64,000 bases of DNA from Trichobilharzia szidati (lineage: Eukaryota > Platyhelminthes > Trematoda > Strigeidida > Schistosomatidae). The stretch's first letter is position 1; each line of letters begins with the position of its first letter. Under the pieces are notes generated by a model. The model was not told the origin of the DNA. It worked only from the letters and a program-made list of their open reading frames with translations, and made no database searches. Location: contig OX235273.1 of assembly GCA_944472155.2 (NCBI GenBank), positions 81,028,793 to 81,092,792 on the forward strand, given 5' to 3'. Both the position numbers and the translations under genes were made by a program. Positions 5,126 through 59,596 of the stretch are shown in pieces.

Positions 5126-5911
5126 CAGTTTCCAGAGTAGGTATAAAATAAGGCAGTTGCTTTAACCAACTCATTGATAAGAAGAATCAAGTCAGTTCAT
5201 TTAACTGCGAAGTAACCGAAGTCTCTTAGAACAAAATTCAAAGTCTTCAGAAAGAGGACAGCGGTATTCCCATGTATTCATCCAGTGAATTTTAAACGTC
5301 ACTGTCTATCTTTCATTAACTCGATTATATTGTGTCTTTCGTCCTCCGCCTTCCTTTACGTAAGTTTCATACCTTGATTTCCTCTTTTTCTATCTCTCTC
5401 TTGTCTAATTAATTTGATATATTTGTGTTATGTAAAATTTATAACTCTTATCAATCAATATACAGTCAAGCCTATTCCTTTCTGCTCTACTGCAGGGTGA
5501 TTGAATTAAATGTCATCTGTTAGTTCAGTGAACAAGACAATAACCATCCACTGGAGTTAATGATAATCTACCACAGATATTTAGACCATGTCTCTTTCAC
5601 AGTATACGTAGTTGAGAGAAAATATCGCAAGGTGAAATTCCATTGAAATCATTTTTTGTTTAAATAACAATTTTAAGGCCAAGTTTGTAGAAATTTCTGA
5701 CTAGCTTTATAAAATAGATTACGTCACTAATTGACTTCACTGAGAACTACTGAGAAATGAAGAATATTGAAAAGAAATACTCATTCTCTAGTTAGGAGTT
5801 TTTCATTGCTATATATATATATATCTTCATACCTGCTCAGAAGTCATTCTATGACCGCCAGTTTAACAGGCAACCACGTTACTATTTCGCCATTCAGTGG
5901 AAATCCAATAC
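5126..5911. other. No gene; short (AT)n at 5811-5824
   Basis: AT-rich sequence without a supported gene. A short TATATATATATATA microsatellite lies at about 5811-5824. Confidence 0.5.
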
Positions 5912-5926
5912 ATTAACAGTGTAGAT

Positions 5927-6501
5927 GATACTAGATGGTTAGAGGCGATCGGCAGGAAGCCTTGCTTCGTGCTACCTGGCACTCACCAGTCAGAAAGGCG
6001 TATCTGCAACCTTGAAGGAACTCATGTCCATCCTGAGATTCGAACCCGCGTCACCCAGTGAGTACTGCAGTCAGAGTTGTTATCACTGAGCTATTCGGGC
6101 TTGCGGTTGACCTCCTGACACATCACACTAGTTACTAGTGTCCAATCAAAGTATCCAATACAGTCCTACAAGAGGTCAATCGCGAGCCTGAATAGCTCAG
6201 TGGTAACGTCTCTGATTGCAGTACTCAGTGGTTGACGCGGGTTTGAATCTTAGAAGGGACATGAGTTCCTTCAAGGTGATTGCGGATACGCCTTTCTGAC
6301 TGGTGAGTGCCAGCTAGCACGAGACCTAGGTGAAGCAAGGCTTCCCGGTGATTGCTTCCAACCATCTAATATCATCAAATCAATGTGCACCGTGATGGCG
6401 GGCTACCTAGTGGCATGGTGGTCACATTGCGAACCTGACTGACAGAATTCAGTCTGCACCAAACAGAGGACTTGACACATCACAGTAGTTACTGGCGTCC
6501 A
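5927..6501. mobile_element. SINE-C inverted dimer with target duplication
   Basis: Left arm (about 5927-6117) is SINE-C in minus orientation. The right arm (about 6118-6501) is plus and contains the tail of one unit, a unit-to-unit junction (TCGCGAGCCTGAATAGCTCA) and then a nearly complete unit. The tRNA-like head has an A box (TAGCTCAGTGG, near 6191) and a B box (GGGTTTGAATC). The dimer is flanked by ATTAACAGTGTAGAT (5912-5926) and ATTAACAGTGTGGAT (6502-6516), a 15-nt duplication with one mismatch. This supports one insertion event for the whole inverted structure. Confidence 0.8.
6290..6341 (+). ncRNA. Hammerhead-like fold in SINE-C
   Basis: GCCTTTCT (6290-6297) faces AGCAAGGC (6334-6341) as stem I with one mismatch. 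The core CTGGTGA (6300-6306) precedes stem II GTGC/GCAC (6307-6310 with 6317-6320). GAGA (6321-6324) sits where GAAA is expected, and ACCTAGGT forms the palindromic stem III. Core changes (A6 to G, GAAA to GAGA, cleavage-site H17 = G) suggest this copy no longer cleaves. Confidence 0.5.
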
Positions 6502-6617
6502 ATTAACAGTGTGGATTTTCAAGTATTGGTTTTGTAGGGATTTTCTTTGTTTGATTGCATGGAGGATTTCATCATGAACTGACATCAGTTAAAGAACCAT
6601 TGGAAAACCTGCAAGGA

Positions 6618-6667
6618 GTACTGGACAGCTGTTTCATCAGCCTAGTTTTGGGACTCTTCAGCAGTAC
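6618..6667 (-). ncRNA. Hammerhead ribozyme, SINE-B left arm
   Basis: On the minus strand: GTACTG (stem I, 6667-6662), CTGAAGA (6661-6655), a short stem II beginning GTCC, GAAA (6635-6632), CAGCTG as a minimal stem III, GTC (cleavage triplet, 6626-6624), then CAGTAC (6623-6618) closing stem I with six perfect pairs. All invariant core positions of a hammerhead (CUGANGA, GAAA, NUH) are present. Stem II is weak in this copy because of an extra CTG before GAT-GAAA. Confidence 0.7.
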
Positions 6668-7125
6668 GCACCCACCGACAGGGTTAGAACCCAGGACCTT
6701 CTGGTTACAAGGCGAGCTAGCTCATAGACCATTGAGCCACTGGGACCCGATCCAATGGTCCTTCAATTCTAACTTCTGCCAATTCAAGACATAGTGCGAC
6801 CATTTCGCAATGTCTTCTTCGATGAGTTACTGCCTCATCTTCAACCTGCTGCACCCTACTGGTCACGGCTCACTAGTGACTGGTCCTATTCAGGCAGTTA
6901 ACCTGGGGTTCTAGTGCGAAGTCGTGACCAGTAGGGTACAGCAGGTTGAAGATGAGGCAGTAACTCATCGAAGAAGACATTGAGAATTGGTCGCGCTATG
7001 TCTTGAATTGACAGAAGTAAGAATTCAAGGACCATTGGATCGGCGAGTCCCAGTGGTTCAATGGTCTACGAGCTAGCTCGCCTTGTAAGCAGAAGGTCCT
7101 GGTTTCTAACCCTGTCGGTGGGTGC

Positions 7126-7175
7126 GTACTGCTGAAGAGTCCCAAAACTAGGCTGATGAAACAGCTGTCCAGTAC
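7126..7175 (+). ncRNA. Hammerhead ribozyme, SINE-B right arm
   Basis: GTACTG (7126-7131), CTGAAGA (7132-7138), stem II region, GAAA (7158-7161), a two-pair stem III (AC/GT around AGCT), GTC (7167-7169) with predicted cleavage after 7169, then CAGTAC (7170-7175), a perfect six-pair partner of the first strand. Sm-alpha repeats of schistosomes are known to encode active hammerheads with the same order of elements. Stem II can form three pairs (GTC with GAT), so activity may be lower than in Sm-alpha itself. Confidence 0.72.
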
Positions 7176-7256
7176 TCCTTGCAGGTTTTCCAATGGTTCT
7201 TTAACTGATGTCAGCTCAAGATGAAATCCTCTATGCAATCTAACAGTGTGGACTTT

Positions 7257-15530: not shown

Positions 15531-15784
15531 GAAATAATGATTGTATTACATACATTGGTGGTTGTTCAGTTCATGTTATTTCACAAATGAAAATCACAAG
15601 TACTTTGACAATGGACTCATCATTAGACCGAATAGTGCAAAGTTCAGTGAACAGTCATAAAAAGTAGAGTAGTAGGGAAACAAGTGGTCAAAAATCGTTC
15701 AAATTCTCAGTAATTCTCTGTCACATGTAGACTCATAGTTAAAATTAACCAAAGCTATTATTCAGATGTATATATAAAGTTTTT

Positions 15785-16310
15785 CGGATTCGCCCATGGA
15801 TTGATATCACTTAGAGAACCATTGAAAACCAAGGAGTACTGGATAGCGCCAACTGGGGTTCGAACCCAGGGCCTTCGTGTACCATTCAGCCACTAGGACC
15901 CGATTCCTCAATGGCCAGCCAGCCCATGAATTCTCACTTCTACCAATTCGTGATGATTAGCGCGACCCCAACCAATGTTGTCAGTAGGACATCCATCCTC
16001 ATATGGGACTGGATGGACCTCACTGGTTACAACTTCTCACTAGAACTCCAGGAACCTGAGTCTTGTAGCAAGTCACTAGCGAGCATCAGATTAATTTTTA
16101 AGTTGATTTATAAGGATTATATCTCTTTTTTTAAGAGTTTGACCATGGATTGATATCAGTTACAGAACCATTGAAAACCAGGGAGTACTGAACAGTTGTT
16201 TGGTTGTAGTTTTGAGCTTTTCAGTACTACACACTCATACATGACCTTGCTTGAGGTCGCACCTATAACCTTCAGGTTACAGTCAAAGTTACTAGGTTGG
16301 AATTCAAGTT
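15785..16310 (-). repeat. SINE-B, tandem partial dimer
   Basis: Two minus-strand units of the B-prime variety in head-to-tail order: CCCATGGATTGATATCA near 15,796 and again near 16,142, a period of about 348 bp. The tRNA-like head is visible in the first unit (GGGTTCGAACCCAGGGC). The hammerhead core is partly deleted in the first unit and mutated in the second. Confidence 0.7.
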
Positions 16311-21160: not shown

Positions 21161-21172
21161 AAAAACACTTGG

Positions 21173-21766
21173 AAGAGTTGGTGTGTGAGGATTAAATCTG
21201 TTTTTCACGAGTTCGCCCACGGAATGATATAAGTTAGAGTACCACTGAAAACCAGCACTGGAGTACTACCAGACAGCTGTTTCATCCTAGTTTTGAGAAT
21301 CATCGGCAGTACGCACCCACTGGGATTCGAATCCGTGGTCAAACTCGTAAAAATCAAATCTAATCCTCACAAACCAACTCTTGAAAGTTAATTTGATGCT
21401 CGTTAGTGACTGGCTATAGGACGTAGTTTCCTGGAGTTCTAGTGGGAATTAGTGACCAGTGAGGTCCATCCAGTCACGTGTGAGGATGGATGTCCTACCA
21501 ACGACATTGGTTGGGATCGCGCTAATATAACGAATTGGTAGAAGTTAGAATTCATGGGCTGGCTGGCCATTGAGCAATCATGTCCCAGTGACTGAATGGT
21601 ATACGAGATTGCTTGCCTTGTAACCGGAAGGTCTTGGGTTGGAACCTCTGTGGTGGGTGCGTACTGCCAATGATTCTCAAACTAGGATAAAACAGCTGTC
21701 TGTCAGTACTCGGTGGTTTTCAGTGGTTCTCTAACTTATATCAGTCCGTGGTCAGACTCGTAAACG
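21173..21766. mobile_element. SINE-B inverted dimer (B-prime variety)
   Basis: The left arm (21,173 to about 21,333) is minus. The right arm (to 21,766) is plus and begins with the tail of one unit (TCAAACTCGTAAAAATCA), passes a unit junction and then contains a complete second unit with tRNA head (GTCCCAGTGACTGAATGG, GGAAGGTCTTGGGTTGG). ACACTTGG flanks it on both sides (21,165 and 21,767), an 8-nt candidate duplication. The hammerhead core is mutated (CCAATGA in place of CUGANGA), but the stem II region and AAAACAGCTGTC remain. Confidence 0.72.
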
Positions 21767-21774
21767 ACACTTGG

Positions 21775-25149: not shown

Positions 25150-25735
25150 ACGTCAAGACCATGAAATGACCTCAATTGGATAACCACTGAAAAAAAACAG
25201 AGAACACTGGAAAGTTGTTTCGTCTCAGTCTGGAACATTTCAATAGCACACACCCATCGCCCCACCAAGGATCGAAATCACTACTTTCAGGTTACGATTC
25301 TAGCTCGCTGACTATTCACCAACTGAGATGTAATCCAATAGCTCATCAATTCCAAGTTTTTACCACTTTTTTTGTGTGTTGCAGTCGTCAGCCAATTACA
25401 TCGGTGAGTATTTGTTCTCAAACCCGAAATGGTTATGGCCTGTCATTAGATTTCTGGGCAAATTCATCTTTTAACCAGTTATTACTGAATATTAGATTAA
25501 TTTTGAAGTGTTGTTCAACAGGGATTTGATTGACTTCAAGTTAAATCATGAAGTGACTGCGGTTAGAGCACCATCGGGGAGTTCAAGAAATCTGTTTCGC
25601 CTTGATTTGAGGTCCGACGCTTGATGGGATAATGGGTACGCACTGCTGAAGAGCCCTAAGCCATAAAGAGATAGCTGTACAGCTGATTTTCAATGACTCT
25701 CTTACTGATTTCATTTTGTAACCTTAATGGACTCA
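25150..25735. repeat. SINE-B relics, old
   Basis: Minus-strand remains at 25,180-25,350 (GAACACTGGAAAGTTGTTTCG, TTTCAGGTTACGATTCTAGC). At 25,515-25,735 there is an apparent inverted pair: a minus piece, then plus GGGTACGCACTGCTGAAGAG and TAGCTGTACAGCTGATTTTC. In the second piece CTGAAGA still stands in hammerhead position but the rest is degraded. Confidence 0.5.
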
Positions 25736-25814
25736 GTCAACCCTTGAAGGTTAATGGATTGGTTATATTGAGTTACGAACTGTAAGGGAACTTTAAGGGT
25801 CGACAAACATTCAG

Positions 25815-27628: not shown

Positions 27629-28232
27629 TGAACGATAGTGAAGAAAAGTTGAGCGTAAGAATTTACAAGTGTTAATGGGGCAGGGATTCGGTTGGTTTCA
27701 AACTTGAATTTGTTCAGTGTCAAGTTCTACAGATAACCACTACTCCACTGAATTTATTCTCATGTCATAAATAATCAATCACCTTGTCGTCTTTTTTCAG
27801 TGTGACCATTAGTAATGAATGCATAGTTAAACAATATTGATTCATGTCATAGCCGAGTCAATCTGTCGTGTAACTGTCGAGAACTGATTAGACTATTTGT
27901 TGTGAATTGATCGATTAAACTAGACTGATCTTAGCTAATTGATTTATCGATAGTGCTGGTTGATAGTATGACTGAATGAGTAGTGCTGACTAATTACTAT
28001 TTGATTTGTACAAGCTCTCACTCTCTCTCTCTCAACCTCGCCTAGATTACTAGCTCACTAGTATTCTGGCCGGTCCCAAGCCCGGATAAAGAGGGAGGGT
28101 TGGGGCGTGGTGCTAGCAACTCCACCCCCAAAACTTAACCAAATTGCTACTAAAACTTCAACGCACAAATATATTCAAAATTCTAAAAATACTAACAATA
28201 ACCTTATTTTTCGCTGGAATCGGGGAAGTGAA

Positions 28233-29858
28233 ATGACGCGGGCTGGTGAAAGCCTTCTGGAAGCCAGTCAGCCGATGTGCCTTCTTTCGATGAAAGCAAA
28301 AATAAGGATGGGGACGTGGAATGTTCGTACAATGTACGAAGCTGGGAAGGCTGCTCAGGTAGCCGCAGAAATGAGGAGATATAAAATAGAAGTGTTGGGA
28401 ATCTGCGAGAGCAGATGGAACGGATGTGGAAGGAGCCAACTATCAACTGGAGAGACAATAATCTACTCCGGTCACCCAGAGGACAATCACGAGCACACCG
28501 AGGGAGTAGCCATCATGATGTCACCAACAGCAGCCAAAGCTCTCATGCAGTGGGAACCAATCTCCTCCAGGATAATGACAGCCAGGTTCAACTCAAAAGG
28601 AAAAAAGGTTACAATCATTCAGTGCTACGCGCCTACAAACGCCTCAGAACATGAGAAGAAGGAGGATTTCTACAGTCAACTACAAACAGTAATGGACAAC
28701 GTCCCAAAGAGCGATATCAAAATCCTGATGGGCGACATGAATGCGAAACTTGGAGGAGACAATACAGAAAGAGAACTCACCATGGGTCGTGAGGCCCTCG
28801 GTGAAAGGAACGAAAATGGCGAACTCTTCTCAGACTTCTGCGCCTTCAATGATTTGGTGATTGGTGGCAGTGTGTTCAAACACAGGGATATACACAAGGC
28901 AACATGGATTTCACCAGATGGACACACCAAAAACCAGATAGACTTCATTTCAATCTCAAGGAAATGGAGACGGAGCCTACTGGACACAAGATCGAGGAGA
29001 GGAGCAGATGTGGGTTCAGACCACTATCTAGTACAAGGGACTTTCAAGGTGAAGCTGAAAGCCTCGAGGATAGCTGGGGATAGGCCACAATGCAAGTTCA
29101 ATACTCACAAACTGAAGGACACAATCACACAGGACATTTTCACTGCAACTGTCAGAGCAAAGCAGGAAACACTACGTGGCACCACTGAGGAATCATCCGT
29201 GGAAGACCATTGGAACTCTCTGAAGGTAATTTTCAACGAAACGTGCTCAACGGTTTTAGGAAGAAAGAAGAAACAAGACAAGGAATGGCTCTCAACAGAC
29301 ACTTGGAAACTAATAGAGGAGAGGAGAATGGTGATAGAGAAAATGATTCAATGCAAAGATGGACAAGAGAAAGAGACGCTGAACTCAACTTACACAGCAC
29401 TGGACAAAGAAGTGAAGAAGAGTGCCAGGAAGGACAAAAGACAATTCTACGACAACCTGGCTACTGAAGCTGAGAAGGCAGCAGGCAAAAGGGACATAAG
29501 GACACTATATCAGATAACCAAGTCTCTATCTGGGAAGAGATCAACACAAGTGACACCTATAAAAGACAGCCAAGGGAACCCAATTACCAAGGAAGAAAGA
29601 CAGATTAAACAATGGGCGGACCACTTCAAAGGACTCTTGAATCGACCACCACCTACAACCCGTCCAGTAATACCAACAACAGCACGTACACAACTGCAAG
29701 CTGACACCAATCCTCCAACGAAAACTGAAGTCATGAATGCAATCAAGCTTCTGAAAGCTGGAAAAGCAGCTGGACCAGATGGAATACCCCCGGAAGCACT
29801 GAAAGCGGACCCAGAGACGACGGCAGATATGCTGACTCCATTATTGCAAAAGATCTAG
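28233..29858 (+). pseudogene. RTE endonuclease and RT N-terminal region
   Basis: The first in-frame ATG of the coding region is at 28,233; the frame is open from 28,107 without an earlier ATG. The endonuclease shows the family signatures in order: KIRMGTWNVRTMYEAGK, LGICESRWNG, ILMGDMNAKLGG, KNQIDFISISRKW and DVGSDHYLVQG. A linker rich in charged residues follows, then the start of the RT (MNAIKLLKAGKAAGPDGIP). A TAG at 29,856 follows QKI; other copies and the continuing frame (KEGKVPTDWRKGYLVKLPKK) suggest an ancestral Trp codon. The endonuclease part looks undamaged. Confidence 0.9.
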
Positions 29859-33045: not shown

Positions 33046-33404
33046 TTTGACTTTAACTTCAATCCCTACTTTATATTACTCTGGCATTAGAAGTCCACTG
33101 GAAATAATGATTAGCCCTAATAGGCAATTAGTGGGATGCCTTGGACTTAAGTTTCGAGTTTGTTGGCTCTCGTCAGGAAGAGACCTCGCACCCAGGATCT
33201 CCTACTGATTGACCTCAGTGATGAGCCATCTAACTCGGTGACTGCATGCATAACTTTACCAATAAAATAAAATCAGAACCAATACTAAGAGCTAGACACA
33301 AGGCATCGATTACACCCCAATAACCAATCAATGAATATGAATAATATTCTTGGAGTCAGCAAAGAGATCATTTCTCGTAACTTCTCTTCCCAGCTGAGAA
33401 CTTA

Positions 33405-34145: not shown

Positions 34146-34462
34146 ATTTATATTCACAGTGTTATCTGACAAAAAAGGTCAAAGGTCATCGTCACTCGGC
34201 ATCAAAACACTATCAAACGGTATGACAAGTAAGAATGTATGAAGCATAGTAAATAATCTTACACAATCAACAGAGTTGATAACTAATTAGATAAGAGATG
34301 ACTAATAATTTGGAAATAACTGATTTGAAACAACTGTTTTAAAAAAAAAGTTGAAAATAGGTTACCGAAAAAATACTAATAATAAACAAAAATGAATGGA
34401 CTACATAGAGTTTTTTGAAATAATAGAGAAGATTTGTAACTCAAATAGATGATTTGGAATTA

Positions 34463-35035
34463 CATGGAGGATTTCTTCATGAGCTGACATCAGTTAGAGA
34501 ACCACTGGAAAACCTGGACAACTGGACAACTATTTCCTCAGTCCTAGTTTGGACTCTTCACAGCACGCATTCACCACAGGAGGTTCGAACCCACGACCTT
34601 CTGGTTACAAGGCGAGCTAGCTCGTAGACCATTGAGCTACTCGGACCCACCGATCCAATGGCCAGTCCATGAATTCTAACTTATGCCAATTCACTACATA
34701 ACGCTACCATTTAGCAATATCTTCTTCGATGAGTTACTGCCCCATCTTCAACCTGCTGTACCCTACTGGTCACGACTTCCCACTAGAACCCCAGGTTAAC
34801 TGCCTGAATAGGGCCAGTCACTAGTGAGCATCATATTAATTTTCAAGTATTGGTTTTGTAGGGAATTTTTGTTTTTGTTTGATTGCATGGAGGATTTCAT
34901 CATGAGCTGACATCAGTTAGAGAACCACTGTCCAGTACTCCCAGGTGTTCCAGTGGTTCTCTAACTGATGTCAGCTCATGATGAAATCCTCCATGCAGTC
35001 AAACAAAAATAATCCCTACAAAATCAATACTTGAA
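34463..35035. mobile_element. SINE-B inverted dimer with tandem left arm
   Basis: Flanked by GATTTGGAATTA on both sides (34,451-34,462 and 35,036-35,047), a perfect 12-bp duplication. The left arm is minus and longer than one unit: CATGGAGGATTTC at 34,463 recurs at 34,886, a 423-bp period, so a unit-to-unit junction is included. The right arm (about 34,933-35,035) is plus and starts at CAGTACTCC, within two bases of the hammerhead cleavage position. The head contains GAGGTTCGAACCC (B box, minus copy). The hammerhead in the left arm is diverged. Confidence 0.85.
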
Positions 35036-35049
35036 GATTTGGAATTAGT

Positions 35050-38312: not shown

Positions 38313-38533
38313 GAAAAGATTAAATTCCACTGTGTTCCTATAGGCACCGAGTTTTGAAGGTTCTATTTAGGTCTTTTTAGTGTTCCATTATCAAATCTAG
38401 TTAAATATATATCAACTTCTCAAAGGTGAATTGAATTACAGTATAACAGCTATTGGAATAATATAGAACTTCTCCTAAACTATCGGTGTCTTTAAGTGTA
38501 GTAAAGCTGCCATTTAAAAGTTTAAAATAATTG

Positions 38534-39064
38534 TTCTTACGAGTTGATCACGGATGGATATCAGTTAGAGAACCATTGAAAACCACCACTGGAGTACTAC
38601 CAGACAGCTGTTTCATCCTAGTTTGGGAATCATCGGCAGTACGCACCCACTGGGATTCGAACCCAGGACCTTCCGGTTACAAGGTAAGCTCGTATACCAT
38701 TCTTGGAGTTCTAGTGAGAAGTCGTGACCAGTGAGGTCCAATTAGATGTCACGTGTGTGGATGGATGTCCCACCTACGACAATGGTTTGGGTCACGCTAA
38801 ATCACGAATCGGTAGAAGTTAGAATTCATGAGCTATTGAATCGGGTCCCAGTGGCTGAATGGTATACGAGATTGCCTTGTAACCGGAAGGTCCTGGGTTC
38901 GAACCCCCTACGGTGGGTGCGTACTGCCTATGATTCCCAAACTAGGATGAAACAGCAGCTGTCCAGTACTCCAGTACTGGTTTTCAATGGTTCTCTAACT
39001 GATATCAATCCCTGATCAACTCATAAAAACATAACTAACCCTTACAAACCAAACTATAGAAAAT
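38534..39064. mobile_element. SINE-B inverted dimer (B-prime variety)
   Basis: TTAAAATAATTG flanks it at 38,522-38,533 and 39,065-39,076, a perfect 12-bp duplication. The left arm (to about 38,704) is minus, the right arm plus. The right arm head has GGGTCCCAGTGGCTGAATGG and CCTGGGTTCGAACCCCC. The left-arm ribozyme (minus, about 38,600-38,645) reads CCGATGA, TTCC/GGAT, GAAAC, GTC: every element in place but U4 changed to C. The right-arm core is CCTATGA. Both are probably inactive. Confidence 0.85.
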
Positions 39065-39079
39065 TAAAATAATTGATTT

Positions 39080-39840: not shown

Positions 39841-39928
39841 TAAATTTACTTTATTCCTTTACCTTCCGAGTGGAACACTGGGTTTCAAGCTTTAGCTTTG
39901 AAGTTTCAGTAGCAGTAATGTCATACTT

Positions 39929-40451
39929 TTGATGATATTAGATGGCTGGAGGCAATCAGCAGGAAGCCTTGCTTCACCTAGGTTTCGCGCTAGTTGGCTC
40001 TGACCAGTCAGCAAGGCGTATCTGCAACCTTGAAGGAACTCATATCCCTGCTGAGATTCGAACCCGCGTCACCCAGTGAGTACTGCAGTCAGAAAGAGGC
40101 GTTACCACTGAGCTATTCGTGCTCGCGATTGATTTCGTATAGTACTGTAGTGGGTACTTTGATTGAACACTAGTAACTAGTGTGATATGTCTAGTTTCTC
40201 TGAAGGGACATGAGTTCCTTCAAGGTTGCAGATACGCCTTGCTGACTGGTGAGTGTCAACTAGCACGAAACCTAGGTGAAGCAAGCTTTCCTGCCGATTG
40301 CCTCCAACCATCTAGTATCAGCAATTCAAAGTGCACCGTGATGGCTAGTTACCTTGTGGCGTGGTGGCCACATTGTAGAGCTGACTGATAGAATTCAGTC
40401 TGCACCAAAGAGAGGACTAGACACATCACACTAGTTGCTAGTGTCCAATCG
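39929..40451. mobile_element. SINE-C inverted dimer inserted into SINE-A
   Basis: The left arm (39,929 to about 40,200) is minus and crosses a unit junction (GAGCTATTCGTGCTCGCG then ACACTAGTAACTAGTGTG). The right arm (about 40,202-40,451) is plus and ends ACTAGTTGCTAGTGTCCAAT, the usual SINE-C 3' end. Flanking duplication is 11 nt with one mismatch. The left breakpoint (GATATTAGATGG) matches the breakpoint of the 5.9-kb dimer. Confidence 0.82.
40236..40287 (+). ncRNA. Best SINE-C hammerhead-like fold
   Basis: Stem I: GCCTTGCT (40,236-40,243) with AGCAAGC (40,280-40,286). Core CTGGTGA at 40,246-40,252. Stem II GTGT/GCAC (40,253-40,256 with 40,263-40,266) around CAACTA. GAAA at 40,267-40,270. 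Stem III ACCTAGGT. This is the same order as a type I hammerhead, with A6 changed to G and G at the cleavage site. Confidence 0.55.
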
Positions 40452-40639
40452 ATGTCATTCTTATTTACGCGGTGAGGCTACTAACCTCACGTCAAGCCTT
40501 CCCTGTTTGTCTGGCTTACTACCAACTTAGTAAAGTTCAGGAGTGTGTAGGCCGGAGATCCAACCCTTGACCAAGTGCATGGTTGGTGAGTGTTCTTACA
40601 ACTAAGCCAATGACGCGGAATATCATAACATTTCATTAT

Positions 40640-41284: not shown

Positions 41285-41660
41285 CCAGTTAACCTGGGGT
41301 TCTAGTGGGAAGTCGTGACCAGTAGGATACAGCAGGTTGAAGATGAGGCAGTAACTCAACAAAGAAGACATTGCGAAATGGTCGCTCTATGTCGTAAATT
41401 GGGAGAAGTTAGAATTCAAGGACCATTGGATCGGTGGGTGCCAGTGGCTCAATGGTCTACGAGCTCGCTTGCCTTGTAACCAGAAGGTCCTGGGTTCAAA
41501 CCTCTTGTGGTGGGTGCGTGCTGTGAAGAGTGCCAAACTAGGACTGATGAAACAGCTTTCCAGTACTCCTTGCAGGTTTTCCAATGGTTCTCTAGCTGGT
41601 ATCAGCTCATGATGAAATCCTCCATGCAATCAAACAAAAACAAAAAATCCCTACAAAATT
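41285..41660 (+). repeat. SINE-B monomer
   Basis: Full unit: CCAGTTAACCTGGGGTTC at the 5' side, tRNA-like head (GTGCCAGTGGCTCAATGG, GGTCCTGGGTTCAAACC), a ribozyme region with GAAGAGTGCC and GATGAAACAGC, and the 3' part GATGAAATCCTCCATGCAA. One base of the core (C3) is lost and the cleavage triplet is TTC. Confidence 0.75.
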
Positions 41661-42475
41661 CTAGAAATCTTGATTGTTATTCTTCTTCTTAGTTTTCTTA
41701 TTATAAATGAACACTTATACACTACAAGACTAATAAAACTTATTAACGGAATATATGGAAATAATTGATTTAAAAAGAAAATTGATTTCTGACTTATTGA
41801 TTCAGTAGTTAGTTCAGTGAGTGAATTTCAAATTAAAATGAACTAAACATACTTGACTGGTATGTACCACGTCAGCATTCATAGTAATCAGATGATGATA
41901 GAGAAGTCGAAAAACAGTTGATGAATACCATATGAATCAGGAGAACAACTGAACTTCTCAAGTGGCTCTAAACTATGCGGATGAAAATAGCAGGTTTGAT
42001 CTGAGAAATAAAAGTGAGTTGATTGTGAAGTTATCTAAGATCGACACGAACTGGCAGACTGCTATTGATGTCATGTGGAATGATACGAAAATCTGAGTTG
42101 TGACACGTTTCGAATCAGAGGCCATTGAATTACCACTCTGATGGTCTACCAACTGGACAACTCGACCTGAATACTAACCAGGTCATCATTTCACTGAAAT
42201 CACCACAAGTAATATCCAGATGTCATCGGCTGGCTCGAATAGTTCAGCTAGTAGAACACCAGACTAATAATCCAGGTTTTCATTTCACCTTTAGTCACCA
42301 CCACTCAGTTAATATAAGTCACATCTTGAATTTCTCTATAAGGGTTTAAAATACGTGGAAATGTACAATTTCTACTCCGGCGGATGAACAAATTGCATTT
42401 TTTTCAACAAAACTCAACTAGGTAACAAATATGAAGGAAACAGAATTGAAAAAACACATTGACTTCAATCTAGAT
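41660..42475. other. No gene; possible tRNA-like scrap
   Basis: GGCTCGAATAGTTCAGCTAG followed by AATCCAGGTTTT near 42,228-42,280 looks like a decayed tRNA head of a SINE. Nothing else is supported. Confidence 0.35.
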
Positions 42476-42479
42476 TTCG

Positions 42480-42770
42480 TTGTGAACCAACATTAGTTGG
42501 AGAATCATTGAAGAGGTGTTTCGTCCTAGGTATGGACTCTTCAAGAGATTGTTCAAAGGATCTAACATTCACAAGCCATTGAATTCTGACCCACTGGCTG
42601 AATAACCAGCTAGCTGGCTTCGTAACCTGAACGTCCTAGGTTTGATCCGTGGTAGGATCATGGGTGCGCATGACTAAGACGAAACAACTGTTAAGTGCCT
42701 CCCTAATTTTCAATGGTTCTCTAACCGATGTTAGTTCATGAGAAAATCCATCCCCACCTCACACCTACTA
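42480..42770. repeat. SINE-B inverted dimer, old
   Basis: Minus piece to about 42,560 (AACCAACATTAGTTGGAGA, GTGTTTCGTCCTAGG), then plus piece with TGACCCACTGGCTGAATAAC, CGTCCTAGGTTTGATCCG and GACGAAACAACTGTTAAG. Head-to-head arrangement again, but strongly diverged and without a recognisable duplication. Confidence 0.55.
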
Positions 42771-43344
42771 AATCCATAATCTGCAGTTCATCAACTTTTC
42801 TAGACTTTTTCATCTGTATACTCCAAATGCATAAATTGTGATGTAATAAAGGATGAATACAGATGATAAACTAAAACAAAGAATATTATACTGTTTTTAA
42901 AACGTTGCTATGTCAACATATGGAAAAGATGGGAATTAGTGTCAACGTAGCATAGCAATGTTTAACTGGCTAGAATGTTTAACCGCAGGTTAACAACAGT
43001 TTACGGGACAAGCACTTATCAGTGAAAAATCTGTTCAATAAATGAGAAGAGTTGAAAAGACAACAGGTCAGTCAAGCGCATTGTTTTCGTAAGGTCATGG
43101 AAAATCACATTAAGGGTCAAATATTATTGTCAGTAGCTATATATGGATAAGAAAGGAAACTGACAAATTGGTTAAATAATCTAACATAATCTACAAAATT
43201 AAGTGATGAATAGAGTTCGGAAATGTTTACTAGTTAAACACAGAACTTGAGCGAAAACCACACACACATACACACACATAAATTTGTGCACAACACTTTT
43301 AATATAAATAATAATAATTGAAGGTAAAAAAGAGAATTAACAAG

Positions 43345-45830: not shown

Positions 45831-45889
45831 TTATATGTATATAAATGCGATTGTACAGAGCTTCAGGATGAAGTCGCTGAAAGGATATC

Positions 45890-46185
45890 TTTAAAGATTT
45901 TATCATGAACTGACATCGGTTAGCGGAACAATATAATAAATATAACTAATCAGGATAATTTGAAATGAGAGAATAGGGAGTCAATGTGTGTTTTCTGATC
46001 TGTTCAGCCTAAAAAGAAAAGTCTAGAAAAGCTCAGGAATTAACTCTTGACAAGACTGCATAATAATTGTCTAGTACTGTCTCAAATTTTCCAACAGTTC
46101 TCTAACCAATGTCAGTGCATGATGAAATCCTGAAACCAATCAAATCCCTGAAAACCAACCAACACTTGGATACCTTAAAGTTGAA
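45890..46185. repeat. SINE-B inverted relics
   Basis: Minus scrap at 45,893-45,935 (TTTATCATGAACTGACATCGG) and plus scrap at 46,035-46,185 (GTCTAGTACTGTC, TTTTCCAACAGTTCTCTAAC, GATGAAATCCTG). The tRNA head is gone. Confidence 0.5.
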
Positions 46186-46809: not shown

Positions 46810-48243
46810 TTATGATCCTGGTGACCATATAGTGGGCCAGGGTAGAAAGAGAGAGTGAATAAGTTTTTTCTGTACACATAAGTCTCGTCTTTCTCTATTA
46901 ACCTCTAAAGCCTCAGCTATGGACAGGAGGCGTAATCCTGTGCCTTTGGGGAGATTGTTCGGTACTCGATACACAACTGTAAACGACTCATCTACTTTGA
47001 TTCTGTGTTCGCTATCCACTAGATGGGATAGAATTGCACTATTTAATGGTTTGGTTGCTCTTTTCCCAAGCCAAACAGGAATATGTTCACGAGTGCGTAA
47101 AGATAAATTCCTTTGGGTACGACCTATATAACTAGCTCCACAGGAGCGGTTGAATTTATATACACACATTGATGTCGTCATTTTGGGTAATCTATCTTTA
47201 ATGCACAGTGTCAGTATCGGTTTGGTTGAGAAAGTGACATGCAGTTTTGCGGTACTGAAAGTTCTTTCAATTGATCTTGTTAACCTACGGTTTAATATGT
47301 CGCTGGATATATCACCTTTGAATTGTAAATTTAAGTAGAGCTTTTTCTTACTTACTGTGTCTCGCTTAATTTTGTGTGTAGTTTCACAGATATACTTCTT
47401 TACAAAGTTGGTAGGATAGTCGTTTTGTAGCAAGGCGTTCGTAAGATTTCTTATTTCATCTTCAATGCAGTCGTCGGTACATATGCGTCTAATTCTATGG
47501 CTGAGACAACGAATTAGGTTGCGCTTATATTGTATAGGTATGAAGCTATGGAAGTGGGTGTATTGTCCATTCCACGTCGCTTTCCTATAGATGTTTCTCT
47601 TTAAGGTACCGTCTGTTCCTTTTGTAAGAAGAACATTCAGAAATGGAATACTACCTTGGAGTTCCTCTTCACAAGTGAATTTAATAGCTGGGTGTACCTT
47701 ATTGAAGACTTGAAGCAGGTATTGTCTATCCAGATTATTGTTGCAAATGATAAAGGTATTGTCAACATATCGACAATAATAATTGAGTTTGTTTAGTATC
47801 TCTTTTAAAGGACCATTTTCCAATTTAGATAGAAATATGTCAGCTAATAAGGAACCAAGGGAAGAACCCATTTGGAGGTAATACTCCTTATCAAATATAA
47901 ACTGAACGTTCATGGTGCATTTTAGTAGTAATTCTTTCAATTTTCTTGGTGTGATCCCAATTTCTATTTTCTTATCTACGAGTTGCTCGCATATGTAGTC
48001 GACAGTTTCTACAAGGGGGACGTTGGTAAATAATGATGTTACGTCCAACGATAACATAGTTTTGTCTGCCAGGTTCATATCTTTAATGTTTTCAACAAAG
48101 TCAAAGACATCTTTTACACTATATTTAACCAACTGGCGATGTAGTGGTTCTAACAGATTTACTAACCATTTGGCAGGTAAATGGAAGTTAATAAAACTAT
48201 CAATGTGAAGATAATTCTTTTTCCTTCTTAGATTACTTATCAA
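46810..48243 (-). pseudogene. PLE reverse transcriptase plus GIY-YIG endonuclease
   Basis: 477-residue open frame. RT: motif A LSLDVTSLFTNVPL (D67), then LLLKCTMNVQFIF, MGSSLGSLLADIFLSKLE (residues 125-142; the Pro usual after MGS is Ser), and YCRYVDNTF (residues 156-164), where the second catalytic Asp is Asn162. Thumb and linker: FLNVLLTKGTDGTL, QYKRNLIRCLSHRIRRIC, LNLQFKGDISSDIL. Endonuclease: VYKF (361-364), SYIG (371-374), LRTREH (382-387). It ends LPWPTIWSPGS. The start is arbitrary: similarity to PLE RTs begins only near AKWLVNLLEPL. The long open frame implies recent activity, but the D to N change should abolish polymerisation. Confidence 0.88.
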
Positions 48244-48689
48244 TGAGCCTTTTTTCGATATTCCCTTATAAACAGGATAGTCACTTTTGCAGTCTTTAGA
48301 TCACATATTTGACAGTATTATCAGAAGTAAGCTCATGAAATTATTTCAGACACCTTTTCTACACATTTTTCCTCTAATTTTAATTTCAGTATTAATAATG
48401 TTATTCAAAAGTCATGGGATTGTAGACAGACACAAAGTGATTTCAATACAATCAACTTGACTGTCCGTCTACAGACTGTGTGTTTACTTAGTGAAGACAA
48501 AAAAAAGAAAAGAAAGGAAATTTAAAACCACTTGAAATTCGTAAAACAAAAATTTGTTTCATTATTCCGGAAAGGTTGTTTATTAAGTAGTGTGCTTCGT
48601 TAGAGTGATAAAGCTTTGAATGAGAAAAAGGAAGAGACTTCCCTCCATCAAGTGAATATTCACAGAAGAACAAAGACCTAACAACTGGC

Positions 48690-49095
48690 CCTATTCAGGT
48701 AGGTAGTAGTTACCTGGGTTCTAGTGGGAAGTCATGACCAGTGGCGTACAGCAGGTTGGGTGTGAGGATAAATACTTGCCACTATTAATGACACTGGCTA
48801 ATGGTCGTGCCAAATTATGAACTGGCAGAAGTTGGAATTAATGCACTGGCCATTGGATCGGGTCCCAGTGGCTTAATGGTCTACTAGCCCGCTGACCTTG
48901 TAACCAGAAGTTCCTGGATCCGAACCTTTTGTGTTTGGTGCGTACTGATGAGGATCCAGTCCCAAAATAGGCTGACGGAATAGCTATCCATTACTCCTTG
49001 AATGTTTTCCAATGATTCTCACACCGATGTCATCTCAAGATGAAATCCTGTAACCAGTCAATCAAATCCCTGCAAACCAATACTTGAATACCTTT
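48690..49095 (+). repeat. SINE-B, third variety
   Basis: Full unit: CCCTATTCAGGTAGG and TTACCTGGGTTCTAGTGG at the 5' side, head GGGTCCCAGTGGCTTAATGG, ribozyme region with GATCCAGTCCC and GGCTGACGGAAT, 3' part GAAATCCTG and CCTGCAAACCAATACTTGAA. The GAAA is mutated to GGAA. Confidence 0.7.
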
Positions 49096-54815: not shown

Positions 54816-55049
54816 TACAGTCTCTGTGGTAGATGCACTGGTTTTAAGTATTTATGAAAGATCGACGTTTTAAATATGTACAAAAATGAATTCAACTGTT
54901 TTCCTCTCAACATTTTATATGGATTACTTAATCAATGAACATTACTCATCTATCAGTCTTGCATATTGTATAAACAGTAGATATCGAAGTATTAGCAAAT
55001 ATTTGCTAAACTGCTTATTCTTATAAAGTATAATTATTATATTTCAATA

Positions 55050-55145
55050 GTTTACACACAATGATAAGTTTCGTTATTGGTAATATTTCGAGCAAAATTA
55101 CTGCCCGTGTGTTCACACCACTGTTGAAATTGTTTTGCTCCTCTC
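55050..55145 (-). repeat. Repeat E copy
   Basis: TTTCAATAGTTTACACACAA, GATAAGTTTCGTTATTGG and GAGCAAAATTACTGCCCG. The same sequence recurs at 56,917. On the minus strand GGGCAGTAA...TTGCTCGAAA resembles the stem-loop plus GAAA of repeat D. Confidence 0.6.
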
Positions 55146-55431: not shown

Positions 55432-56632
55432 TAACTTTGCCAGACTATTGACTTCTCCCTTAGGCATAAACGAGATCTACAAACACTAGTAAGTTCTCAT
55501 GAAGACTGTTGCATTGAGGGGACTAAAACTGAAACCAAGTCTAATGCAAAATACCTCGGTCTAGTTCTATCTTCCAACCTTACTTGGTCATCTCATATCC
55601 TAACGATTTCTAAGAAAGTGTTCTGTCTTACCTACTACATTAAGAAACTTAGACATTCTGGAATCACCCAACCTCTACTTTCACAGTTTGTCAACTCTCG
55701 CCTTGTATCTCATCAGGTAGAACCAGAAATCAGTATAAAATAATCTATGCTCGTACAACCAAGTACAGGAACTCAACGATACCGTACTTGGCCCGTGTTC
55801 TAAGTGACAGAGACAATGTTAAGCGTGAAACCTATGACTTGCTTTGTTGTTAACAACATAATTTTAGGCTCTTTTATTTCTCTCTTATTTTGTATTCTAT
55901 AGTGAACTCCTTCTCAAGCATACTTAGCTACCGAAATGATTAACATTGGCTTCCTTTTTTGTACTTAACTATACTCCTTCTATTGTGTATCCACTGGTTC
56001 CGACTATATTAGCACTATGAGTATTAGAAAATTGTCCTGACATTAACCATCATGTAATTATTAGTTTTGTGGTTGTTTTTTCTTATTTTCTATACTTTTT
56101 AGCAATATTAAACTGACAATATTGGCTGTGGAAGCCATTATCACCATCTTAAAATTTTGTATTATGCAGGATTACTCACACTACCACTACAAACACCGCA
56201 TTAGACCTGACAATAAAAACAAAACAACAACCCCGAAATGTTATTTTATGATTGTTTAGAGTTGTTTCAACCAAATTAACTGACCATCTTGGCGATAAAC
56301 ATTCTTAAATATCATTTGATAACTTCTTGTATGACTAAAGCTTTACTGTCACTATGCATAATCATATCATAGCTTCCACTACCGAATACTGAGTTATTAT
56401 TATATGATGTTTATTTTCCTTTCTAGTTCTCGGTATTTTTTCGCACTTATAATTATTTTTGTGTTTATCCTGTTTGTTCTTTTTGCTGTTGGTGTCTTTA
56501 GATTTTTTTTTGTTAAATACTCCTTTTAAATATTTGTAAAATTAGATGCAAATATTGTAGATATGTGCTGAAAATTCCACACTGTACCACTAGTACTGTT
56601 TCTGGAATAAAGCAAATTGTTATTATTATTAT
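55432..56632 (+). pseudogene. CR1/SR1-like LINE, 3' end with internal deletion (copy d)
   Basis: Plus-strand fragment in several frames: KRDLQTLVSSHEDCC, NAKYLGLVLSSNLTWSSHIL, VFCLTYYIKKLRHSGITQP, LLSQFVNS, then directly LSPCISSGRTRNQYKIIYAR and RETYDLLCC. About 250 bp between QFVNS and LSPC are missing. The 3' UTR ends GGAATAAAGCAAATTGTTAT followed by ATT repeats. Close relative of copy a. Confidence 0.82.
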
Positions 56633-56916
56633 TCATCTCATCACTGAGAAAAAGTTTGATCACAAACGCATTCAAATATACTAAAGATTTATCCGATGCA
56701 ACACACTGTTTCTACCTTGCAACAATCCATCTGGATATACTGCTACTTTCTTGAAGATGTAATTCTTCAATGATTTCATTTAACCACATGAAATAACGAA
56801 TCTCAACTTCTTCTTTTTTTTCCAATCTACTTATAATTACGTGCGCGATTCATGATTACGCAATCTCTGTGCATTTTTAAAAGGTTAATCTCCTAATAAA
56901 GTATTATTATTATTAT

Positions 56917-57090
56917 ATTTCAATAGTTTACTCACAATGATAAGTTTTGTTATTGGTAATATTTCGAGCAAAAAATTACTGCCCGTGTGTTCACACCACT
57001 GTTGGAATTGTTTTGTTCACACATTTATGATTTGTATTACCAATAACAAAACTTATCATTGTGTGTAAACTATTGAAATATAATTATAAT
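56917..57090. repeat. Repeat E inverted pair (hairpin)
   Basis: Left arm from ATTTCAATAGTTTACTCACA to TATTGGTAATATTTCGAGC, right arm from ATTACCAATAACAAAACTTA to GTGTGTAAACTATTGAAATA: about 47-bp inverted arms around a 70-nt spacer. Confidence 0.75.
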
Positions 57091-57412
57091 TTATTTGGTC
57101 GAATCTACAATGCTCAAACTTTTTACTGATATTAATGCTTATTCTTACTCCATTTTTGCTTCACTCACTTCTTTTTTTTCTATTACAAAGATAGACTTCA
57201 GACACAATTACAAGGTTTATGCAGTCAGTAAGCAGTTAACTACTACAAGCAGCTGATCAATAGTCTCACAGGTTAATCCGAAGGTCTACGGAACAAATCC
57301 TTCTGTAAACCAAATGTTCACTTCATATTCAGTCATCACCCAACAGGCTAATGCAAGACTTTTTCAGACAGTTTTACCACACACCCCCATATGAAACAAT
57401 TAGAGGTGTAAT

Positions 57413-58660
57413 TAGCTTGTCATGTAACTGTACATGTAGTCGAAGACTTAGATCCAGAACTACGCCAACCCTTCGAAGAATATGCCAAAGAAGTAACAGA
57501 GAAACAATGCGACAACATCAAATCTGACCTCCTTAAGAGCCTAAAGCCTTCAGTTAATACCGAACGTCCGTTCCCGAGCAATCCAGAAAAGTATGTTTTC
57601 AACCTCTCAAACATCATACTATCCACAGCTCAACTAGAGGTGTTATCTGTTGGTCCGAAATTCTGTGTAAAACCACGAAGTGTTCACAAGCTTCAATGCC
57701 TGGTTCAATTTGAAAACCTGATAAATCAAACCTATGAATTGATATCAACGTCTGATGAGAACCTACAACAATTCAAATCAACTGTCCTCGACTGTTACCA
57801 CAAATTTATAAATGGTAATCCAAACGGAAGATCCGTACTAACGAAGAAACACTACAAAGAGCTGAAAAAATTGATGAACAATGAAGAGATTATGCTGATA
57901 CGTCCTGATAAAGGTGGAGGAACCGTAAGGATTATATCAGTAAAATGTTGACCATTCTATCTGGTGAATCTAAATTCGCCAAACCGGCCAACGAGAAAAA
58001 CATGACGGAGCAGATTGAACAAAAACTAACAGACATCCTGCGTAAACTAAAGAACGAATCATTCATTACCAACGAAATGTTTGAATCCCTGAGACCATCT
58101 GGTTCAAATATACCAAGACTCTACGGACTTCCTAAAGTACACAAGATGGGCACTCCACTTCGACCGATCCTCGACATGACTAATTCACCCTACCACCGCA
58201 CTGCCCAATGGCTAGGAGACTTACTTGAACCAATCAGAAAACAAGTCTTCCGTCACTCAGTGCGAGATTCATTTGAATTCGTCAACTGCATCGAAAACGT
58301 CAATGTTTCTAATCAAATGATGATCTCACTAGATGCTGTCTCATTGTTTACAAATGTTCCACTAACTGAAACATTTTGTCACATATGCGAGCTCATCCAC
58401 TAAAAAGGAGTAAACATCGGCATACCCACCGACTATATAAAAAAAAATTTAACAATTGAAGTGTTTGTAGTATGCCAAATGGGTTAAATACCTTCACAAC
58501 AAACTCTTTTATAGGATTTGTTCTCCCTACAGTTAAAAATATATATATCATACAGATCTTTATTTCGCGACTAGAGATACCTACTAACTCAACTATCATT
58601 GAAATTCCACTATATACTAACGAATCCTACAAAAGTGGACTTCGTAATGAAAGCTAAATC
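57413..58660 (+). pseudogene. Penelope-like element, N-terminal and RT fingers/palm part
   Basis: Open from about 57,413: EDLDPELRQPFEEYAKEVTE, LSNIILSTAQLEVLSVGPKF, CVKPRSVHKLQCLVQFENLI, SVLTKKHYKELKKLMNNEEI, LIRPDKGGGTV. A frameshift near 57,930 leads to LTILSGESKFAKP, then PRLYGLPKVHKMGTPLRPIL, WLGDLLEPIRKQVFRHSVRD and SLDAVSLFTNVPLTET (motif A Asp present), with a TAA at 58,401. After that the sequence is degraded, so motifs B and C and the endonuclease are absent. This supplies the N-terminal half that the 46-48 kb copy lacks, but it is a different subfamily. Confidence 0.85.
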
Positions 58661-58889
58661 ATCTAAAGTAGGTTTGTAAATGCAAATACAGTCATTTGAC
58701 AGTCATTTTGGTTTAGTTCACCATTAGTCAGTAGTGAATCACTTGTTAAACTAACCAACAAGCTGTAGACACTGTTTCTACTCATCTTAGCTGATTTACT
58801 TTGAAGTCACTGCGAAACATGGTGTCTGGATTAGGTGATTTCGCATTCAAACTATCCATTTCAGACAACACAACTAATCTCAGGGATAA

Positions 58890-59596
58890 ATAATGATAAT
58901 AATCCTAATAATTTGCTTTATTCCAAAACAGTACTTGTGATACAGCATTTTTACTACAGTATTGCATCCAGTTAGTACATTATCAATAAATAGAATTCTA
59001 CATAGATTAAGGAAATCTCAGTTCATTATGACAACAACATATTGGCATGTCGGTACCAAAGCCAAAGTTGAACAGTGTTTGAAGGTGTTAGAAAAGTAGG
59101 AGCTGTCATATTTACTGGTGTAAGCGGAAGAAAGAAACAAAGCAGCACAAAAAGGAAAAAAACAGGGAGAGAGAGAAAAGGAAAAGAAAATGTTGTACGT
59201 ATAAATGATATGACTTGGAAAGACGAGATCCAGTCGTTCTACTGACTATTTAATGAATTATAGGTGTCACTCCTAATGCTTTCTTTATCTCACAGAACAC
59301 GAACTAAGTAAGGTATGGTTCAGTTTTTGTACTTGCTTGCTGGTGCGAGCATATAGTTTTCTATATAAGCTTCTGGTCTCCTGACTGATGAGATGCAAGG
59401 GGAGAGTTGTGAGTGAAGAGGGTGGCGTGAGTTGTTAGATAAATTGGATTTGGCCCATTTTTCACATGAGTCCATGTGCCTGTCGACCAGAATATTAACA
59501 AGCTGGTTAAGTGGCACTTTGCTTACCCTGCTGACAACCTTTAACATCCTACGTAATATGTTATAGTCTTTCTTCAGTAGCCCGGGAAAAACTAAA
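58890..59596 (-). pseudogene. CR1/SR1-like LINE, 3' end (copy e)
   Basis: Tail TAATAATTTGCTTTATTCC at the left (minus orientation). The frame at 59,320-59,547 gives LKVVSRVSKVPLNQLVNILV, DRHMDSCEKWAKSNL and HPLHSQLSPCISS. 5' truncated near 59,596. Same subfamily as copy b, and keeps the 3' terminus that copy b lost. Confidence 0.82.

Follow-up and report, generated by a model that had tools for sequence, protein, structure and literature searches.

The element at positions 6504-7252 of the window (the whole 64,000-nucleotide stretch of DNA that was analysed) is an inverted dimer of a non-coding hammerhead SINE, and it was probably produced in one retrotransposition event by the enzyme of a Penelope-like element (PLE). 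The dimer, D1, consists of a minus-strand arm followed by a plus-strand arm of the same family, SINE-B, with the two 5' ends together at the centre. Its features are listed below, the arm limits being those obtained with the duplications as bounds.

6504-6515, plus strand: left 12-nt target-site duplication TAACAGTGTGGA, which doubles as the right duplication of the neighbouring SINE X1
6516-6876, minus strand: left arm, SINE-B, with complete 3' tail, 5'-truncated
6516-6552, minus strand: 37-nt A/C-rich tail (81% A+C), in the left arm only
6618-6667, minus strand: type I hammerhead of the left arm (Rfam RF00163, 37.1 bits)
6866-7240, plus strand: right arm, SINE-B, including the unit start GCTCACTAGTGA, without the 37-nt tail
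7053-7111, plus strand: tRNA-like stretch, presumed Pol III promoter (box A-like word at 7053-7064, box B-like word at about 7101-7111)
7126-7175, plus strand: type I hammerhead of the right arm (RF00163, 37.1 bits), predicted cut after 7169
7241-7252, plus strand: right 12-nt target-site duplication, an exact copy of TAACAGTGTGGA

The arms, their orientation, the duplications and the unequal tail are read directly from D1, as are the recurrence of the arrangement and the unit junctions described below. The inverted arms match in two blocks, 6548-6749 with 7044-7245 (96% complementary) and 6747-6870 with 6920-7043 (94%); aligned arm to arm they show 93.4% identity over 335 alignment columns, and overall they are 93-96% identical. 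Alignment to other SINE-B copies sets their limits at 6530-6876 (minus) and 6868-7239 (plus). An earlier note on this DNA had described an inverted head-to-head SINE dimer within one duplication, with arms of 348 and 373 bp; the description is confirmed, and the lengths are near those found here. Both arms are enclosed by exact copies of TAACAGTGTGGA, a word expected 0.004 times on one strand of 64 kb from the base composition. In 4,000 random flank pairs of similar size, the best 12-mer reached 12/12 in three cases (P = 0.00075). The single insertion event proposed earlier is upheld by this one pair of duplications around both arms and by the grouping of the arms as sisters in the tree (ultrafast bootstrap 94). 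The spacing of about 12 nt between arms that had been expected is not seen in D1, where the arms abut with no duplication between them; TTAATNTGATGC separates head-to-tail units elsewhere. A palindrome, TCACTAGTGA, lies at the junction, and the central 49 nt continue the right arm in other SINE-B copies. The 3' end of SINE-B is CTTGAAAA, with no poly(A) tail. D1 contains no ORF of at least 150 aa.

To the left of D1 lies an element of a second SINE family, termed X:

5914-5925, plus strand: third copy of the duplication word, TAACAGTGTAGA, with one mismatch; left duplication of X1
5926-6503, unstranded: X1, head-to-head dimer of the second SINE family, adjoining D1

The order across 5914-7252 is word, X1, word, D1, word. 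Since the word occurs beyond X1 as well as at 6504, the left duplication of D1 is common to two insertions. X1 and D1 are read as having inserted one after the other at a single 12-bp cut site, a target for which the enzyme that cuts it may have a preference. Family X forms head-to-head dimers at two places, X1 (5911-6515) and X2 (39917-40462), with flanking repeats matching at 11/12 and 10/12 positions. Mapped on the unit, the short ends of X1 and X2 are no more than about 4 nt apart, and the difference between long and short tails is 129 nt (X1) and 126 nt (X2), compared with 33-40 nt in SINE-B. A sub-threshold hammerhead match with intact core words (33138-33182, minus strand, 24.4 bits) overlaps a match to the X profile at 33122-33180; family X may also bear a hammerhead.

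Ten pieces of SINE-B from the window were combined into a profile, which detected 22 segments in it at E<=1. Neighbours no more than 150 nt apart form ten pairs, seven of them minus-plus (head to head) and three minus-minus (tandem); plus-minus (tail-to-tail) or plus-plus pairs at this distance number zero in the window. All seven opposite-strand neighbours are therefore head to head, where 20,000 random placements gave four at most, and the earlier suggestion that inverted dimers recur is borne out. Besides D1, the following loci belong here.

34451-35047, unstranded: inverted dimer D2, with exact 12-nt repeats GATTTGGAATTA at 34451-34462 and 35036-35047
34816-34839, within the minus arm of D2: unit border, through which the arm runs
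38522-39075, unstranded: inverted dimer D3, with exact 12-nt repeats TTAAAATAATTG
21161-21774, unstranded: inverted dimer D4, with flanking repeats of 10/12 (8 contiguous) and a unit border at 21388-21411
45883-46179, unstranded: degraded inverted dimer D5, with flanking repeats of 10/12
42463-42775, unstranded: degraded inverted dimer D6, left arm with a profile E of 0.011, repeats not above chance
25150-25740, unstranded: degraded inverted dimer D7, with a tandem minus arm, repeats not above chance
16071-16094, minus strand: head-to-tail unit border TTAATCTGATGCTCGCTAGTGACT in the tandem SINE-B copy at 15784-16281

The SINE-B copies that are not inverted comprise four single copies (M40, M41, M44 and M48) and one tandem (T16k). 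Flanking repeats were tested at 12 SINE-B loci, the outer ends being judged once exact flanking repeats had already been seen. The match was 12/12 at D1, D2 and D3 (P = 0.00075 each), 10/12 at D5 (P = 0.022) and at M40, a single copy with a flanking repeat of its own, 9 at T16k, 8/12 at D4 (with its first ends), D6, D7, M44 and M48, and 7/12 at M41. D4 rose from 8/12 to 10/12 (P = 0.022) on a retest in which the right end was moved 8 nt to the profile match and the left end 3 nt. Flanking repeats around both arms are thus exact for D1-D3, match at 10/12 for D4 and D5, and do not exceed chance for D6 and D7 (8/12). Dimers with clear repeats differ in the repeat word, save D1 and X1, which have it in common. 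Viral contigs contained no match to exact patterns taken from the hammerhead, from the 3' part or from the unit border, and a genome-contig collection none to one exact hammerhead-to-3' pattern; both sets are non-eukaryote, and such patterns miss diverged copies.

The two outer ends of a dimer are unequal. One arm is longer at the 3' end by 37 nt in D1, 40 nt in D2, 34 nt in D3, 33 nt in D4 and 37 nt in D5, and the A+C content of this additional stretch is 73-81%. In each of the five dimers (D1-D5) a single end is long and the other is short. For this measure the ends were taken as the inner limits of the flanking repeats and the arms were then aligned; D6 and D7, with unclear ends, were left out, and the tail ends of D4 and D5 rest on the 10/12 repeat matches. 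The second start site thus clusters 33-40 nt inside the tail in 5/5 dimers measured, and scattered starts were not seen. From the predicted hammerhead cut, the distance is 71 nt to the short start site and 108 nt to the long one. Five tail or 3' stretches were folded alongside their shuffles, and in no case was the real sequence significantly better (z from -0.42 to 1.76).

At three loci a further unit, beginning with TTAATNTGATGCTCNNTAGTGACT, comes after the end of a unit tail, with TTAATNTGATGC as the border word; the unit, as the sum of its parts, is about 422 nt long. A search of the window with the border pattern returned these three loci and no others (0.01 expected in shuffles); the pattern was written from the same three loci, so the result shows conservation among them and is not an independent test. 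In D2 and D4 the border lies inside one arm of the dimer. Unit borders inside SINE-B copies mean that DNA was copied through the borders of repeating units. The multimeric template of the earlier note accordingly stands insofar as the template was longer than one unit, the junction being kept at three loci; the multimeric RNA itself is still a deduction.

In the tree, the sister arms of D1 have near-equal branches (0.032 and 0.034). The arms of D3 are not sisters, and the groupings of D2 and D4 have 50-80% support. The arms of D1 differ by 15 substitutions, counted without the columns before 60, where the junction region is unsure; 11 are private to one arm, four show a state that also occurs in copies further away in the tree, and the two nearest copies (the D2a arm and M41) do not differ at any of these sites. 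A 3-nt gap in the left arm recurs in more distant copies. These patterns fit arms that were near-identical at insertion and source units that were near-identical too; slightly different units are also possible.

The two D1 hammerheads exceed the RF00163 cut-off of 34 bits, and the cut after 7169 is placed from the motif. At E<=1 the left arm of D3 matches the hammerhead below the gathering score, and another sub-threshold match overlaps the left arm of D6. In the Rfam alignment, stem II of the D1 hammerhead has two non-standard pairs, and folding the stretch on its own by minimum energy gives the stem II hairpin but no hammerhead. Because of this irregular stem and fold, self-cleavage of the D1 RNA is not to be assumed. 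Read by eye, the closely related SINE-B copies at 6624-6661 (minus), 7132-7169 (plus), 34458-34824 (minus) and 41286-41650 (plus) have either a stem II that is paired anew or additional bases (TGAT or TGAG) that part stem II from the GAAA word; it is doubtful whether hammerheads of this subfamily are active. In a single case, also seen by eye, the plus arm of D2 starts at 34928-34940, a few nucleotides from the predicted hammerhead cut, and this start is possibly the 5' end of a cleaved RNA. Elsewhere in the window, a match resembling the type-P1 twister ribozyme (28029-28103, plus strand, 53 bits, below the cut-off of 67.2) corresponds to the start of an RTE-like ORF with an endonuclease domain (28062-29858).

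The box A-like and box B-like words were read by eye against the Pol III box consensus. ARAGORN found no tRNA genes in the 64-kb window, and the tRNA-like promoter therefore rests on those words. In a head-to-head dimer the presumed promoters would both face outward, so that such a copy by itself could not yield RNA of a whole unit, and the loci that supply it would be the tandem copies.

The structure of the SINE-B dimers resembles that of PLE insertions. PLEs form inverted copies, most often head to head, with duplications of 8-10 bp; a 31-bp tail is optional on one inverted copy, and one inverted copy is 37 bp shorter (PMC3846280). In A. vaga the copies of some PLE families are all in direct orientation, and a duplication is missing from some copies (PMC3846280). 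A PLE protein, once purified, could cut the two target strands and extend each of them; cDNA synthesis started from two internal positions within an AC-rich stem-loop, and the tail corresponds to the 30-40 bp that separate these positions (PMC11167929). According to the same work, a multi-copy transcript is the proposed template, hammerhead mutants kept insertion activity, and the hammerhead cut lies 85-92 nt from the commonest start (111-118 minus 26). The SINE-B distances of 71 and 108 nt bracket this value. SINE-B is thus like PLEs in its head-to-head copies, short duplication, A/C-rich tail of 30-40 nt on one end, read-through of units, and hammerhead upstream of the start site. It differs in that its duplication, at 12 nt, is longer than the 8-10 bp of PLEs (PMC3846280), no stem-loop is demonstrable at its tail, and D1 has no ORF of at least 150 aa, so that it is not a PLE and only inserts like one. 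Family X departs from PLEs in its start-site difference of 126-129 nt instead of 30-40.

PLE remnants occur at seven places in the window, and PLEs of Trichobilharzia were already known (PMC4465651). The remnant that represents a candidate class of helper is:

46813-48282, minus strand: PLE remnant with reverse transcriptase, by homology (Pfam RVT_1, 28.5 bits, just under the cut-off of 29.6)

Its named relatives are mostly from Schistosoma, Trichobilharzia and other flukes among the best 120 of 154 matches, and two stretches of the window are 96% and 92% identical to T. regenti proteins, which makes T. regenti or a close relative the probable source of the DNA. A domain search did not show GIY-YIG in the PLEs of the window, for which this domain was judged by eye and from the literature. 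A low-stringency comparison of the SINE-B 3' end with these PLEs returned SINE-B copies and weak matches at chance level only, and a PLE terminal repeat carrying the SINE start-site sequence gave no clear match in the window, where the PLE copies are fragmentary. An inverted pair (56582-56649 and 58878-58945) surrounds the PLE remnant at 57376-58484. Inverted repeats are also present upstream of that remnant at 56905-57085, with a related stretch at 55020-55140. The repeats at 56905-57085 and the pair 56582-56649/58878-58945 are possibly PLE inverted terminal repeats. Another inverted pair, 8267-8415/10458-10608, lies near a further PLE remnant. Same-strand SINE-B pieces at 46087-46176 and 49005-49094 flank the 46813-48282 remnant, by chance or as a composite insertion. 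Among database entries, PLE reverse transcriptases filed under a metagenome-assembled genome of Lactococcus garvieae (P0032, P0038) look like eukaryote contamination.

On the reading preferred here SINE-B would be moved by a PLE, and the steps of the insertion, together with the kind of RNA that entered it, may be reconstructed as follows. The SINE RNA would offer the unit more than once, whether in a linear multimer, in a circle or through several identical RNAs next to one another. The duplication suggests that a PLE endonuclease would cut both target strands 12 bp apart at TAACAGTGTGGA. The ends suggest that each 3' end would prime reverse transcription inside the A/C-rich tail, one of them starting at the outer site, which preserves the tail, and its partner 37 nt deeper, which leaves the tail out. 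Both cDNAs would then proceed in the direction of the unit's 5' end and terminate at unequal positions; joining them would produce arms that lie head to head and have their 3' ends on the outside. The wider proposal is that blood-fluke hammerhead SINEs use PLE helpers, that they insert as a rule as head-to-head dimers owing to two-sided internal initiation on an RNA that is circular or made of repeats, and that SINE-B and X share machinery and the 12-bp target; for this the chances appear evenly balanced.

LINE-1 twin priming leaves scattered second starts along the RNA and a poly(A) 3' end. The earlier note had invoked twin priming, and a LINE-type form of it, acting by chance annealing on a multimeric SINE transcript with an enzyme such as that of the RTE-like element at 28062-29858, would account for an inverted pair inside one duplication, the respect in which LINE-1 inversions and D1 are alike, and for a template that runs through unit borders. 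An ORF with a LINE-type endonuclease/exonuclease domain is present in the window, and AACA, read by eye against the RNA sequence AAACAAAG, supplies four matching bases beside the second primer of D1. In the LINE-1 sense the claim is not supported: the second start is fixed near the tail, 33-40 nt inside it in all five dimers and unscattered, one end is tailed, there is no poly(A), the 3' end being as given above, and the two arms are both nearly full length and together require more than one unit. The PLE-like signature of the SINE-B dimers favours PLE-type two-sided priming, and the LINE-type route is considered unlikely.

Other ways of making an inverted pair are far less probable. Snap-back copying, in which one cDNA primes itself, would suit the palindrome at the D1 junction; palindromes occur at PLE inverted junctions, and snap-back copying is discussed for the Penelope elements of A. 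vaga (PMC3846280). The left arm, however, has 37 nt absent from the right one, and the 49-nt centre continues the right arm in other copies, so the left arm was not simply copied from the right; the outer ends are also unequal in 5/5 dimers measured. These points make self-priming very improbable. Slightly more remote is the chance that two elements inserted independently at one position, each facing the other way. With three occurrences of the word, bounding X1 and D1, this site appears to have been used twice, and repeated use of it does happen; but no duplication lies between the D1 arms, these arms are sisters with branches of 0.032 and 0.034, and six further loci show the same head-to-head layout. 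Assembly artefacts are known to include inverted copies. An artefact or a foldback DNA transposon is the least probable source of D1, as the arms differ by about 6%, the bounding repeats are direct and not inverted, and different dimers have different repeats, save D1 and X1.

With PLE-type insertion as the preferred reading, insertion ends become a possible fingerprint of the mobilizing enzyme for hammerhead SINEs and animal retrozymes, and the question of the enzyme can be put to the test in any genome by mapping start sites and orientation. A short non-coding passenger displays both primed ends with no ORF between them, and in this way bears on how PLE insertions are completed. The proposal of a PLE helper is itself already in print. 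For the evidence from insertion structure, namely head-to-head dimers and the Penelope tail signature as features of hammerhead SINEs, no earlier account was found in the full-text literature, a body that leaves most subscription journals outside.

The known schistosome relatives are the hammerhead SINE-like elements SMalpha and Sjalpha (Ferbeyre 1998 and Laha 2000, cited in PMC8490949 and PMC2770079). By their description in the available portions of these sources, SINE-B is like them: short, non-coding, with a type I hammerhead and tRNA-like words, and at high copy number in schistosome genomes; those portions contain no mention of inverted head-to-head dimers or of a tail with two start sites. 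Metazoan non-LTR retrozymes have units of 150-450 bp, tandem copies and duplications of more than 4 bp, and PLEs are regarded as a strong candidate helper for them on the grounds of common type I hammerheads, tandem copies and genomes (PMC7229834). Both these retrozymes and the PLE-helper proposal were already known (PMC7229834 and PMC7761336). SINE-B is unlike the retrozymes in that head-to-head pairs outnumber other arrangements in the window and that the D1 hammerhead has a non-standard stem II. It is like them in its type I hammerhead, unit of about 422 nt, tandem copies and 12-nt duplication, and in the presence of PLEs in the same genome.
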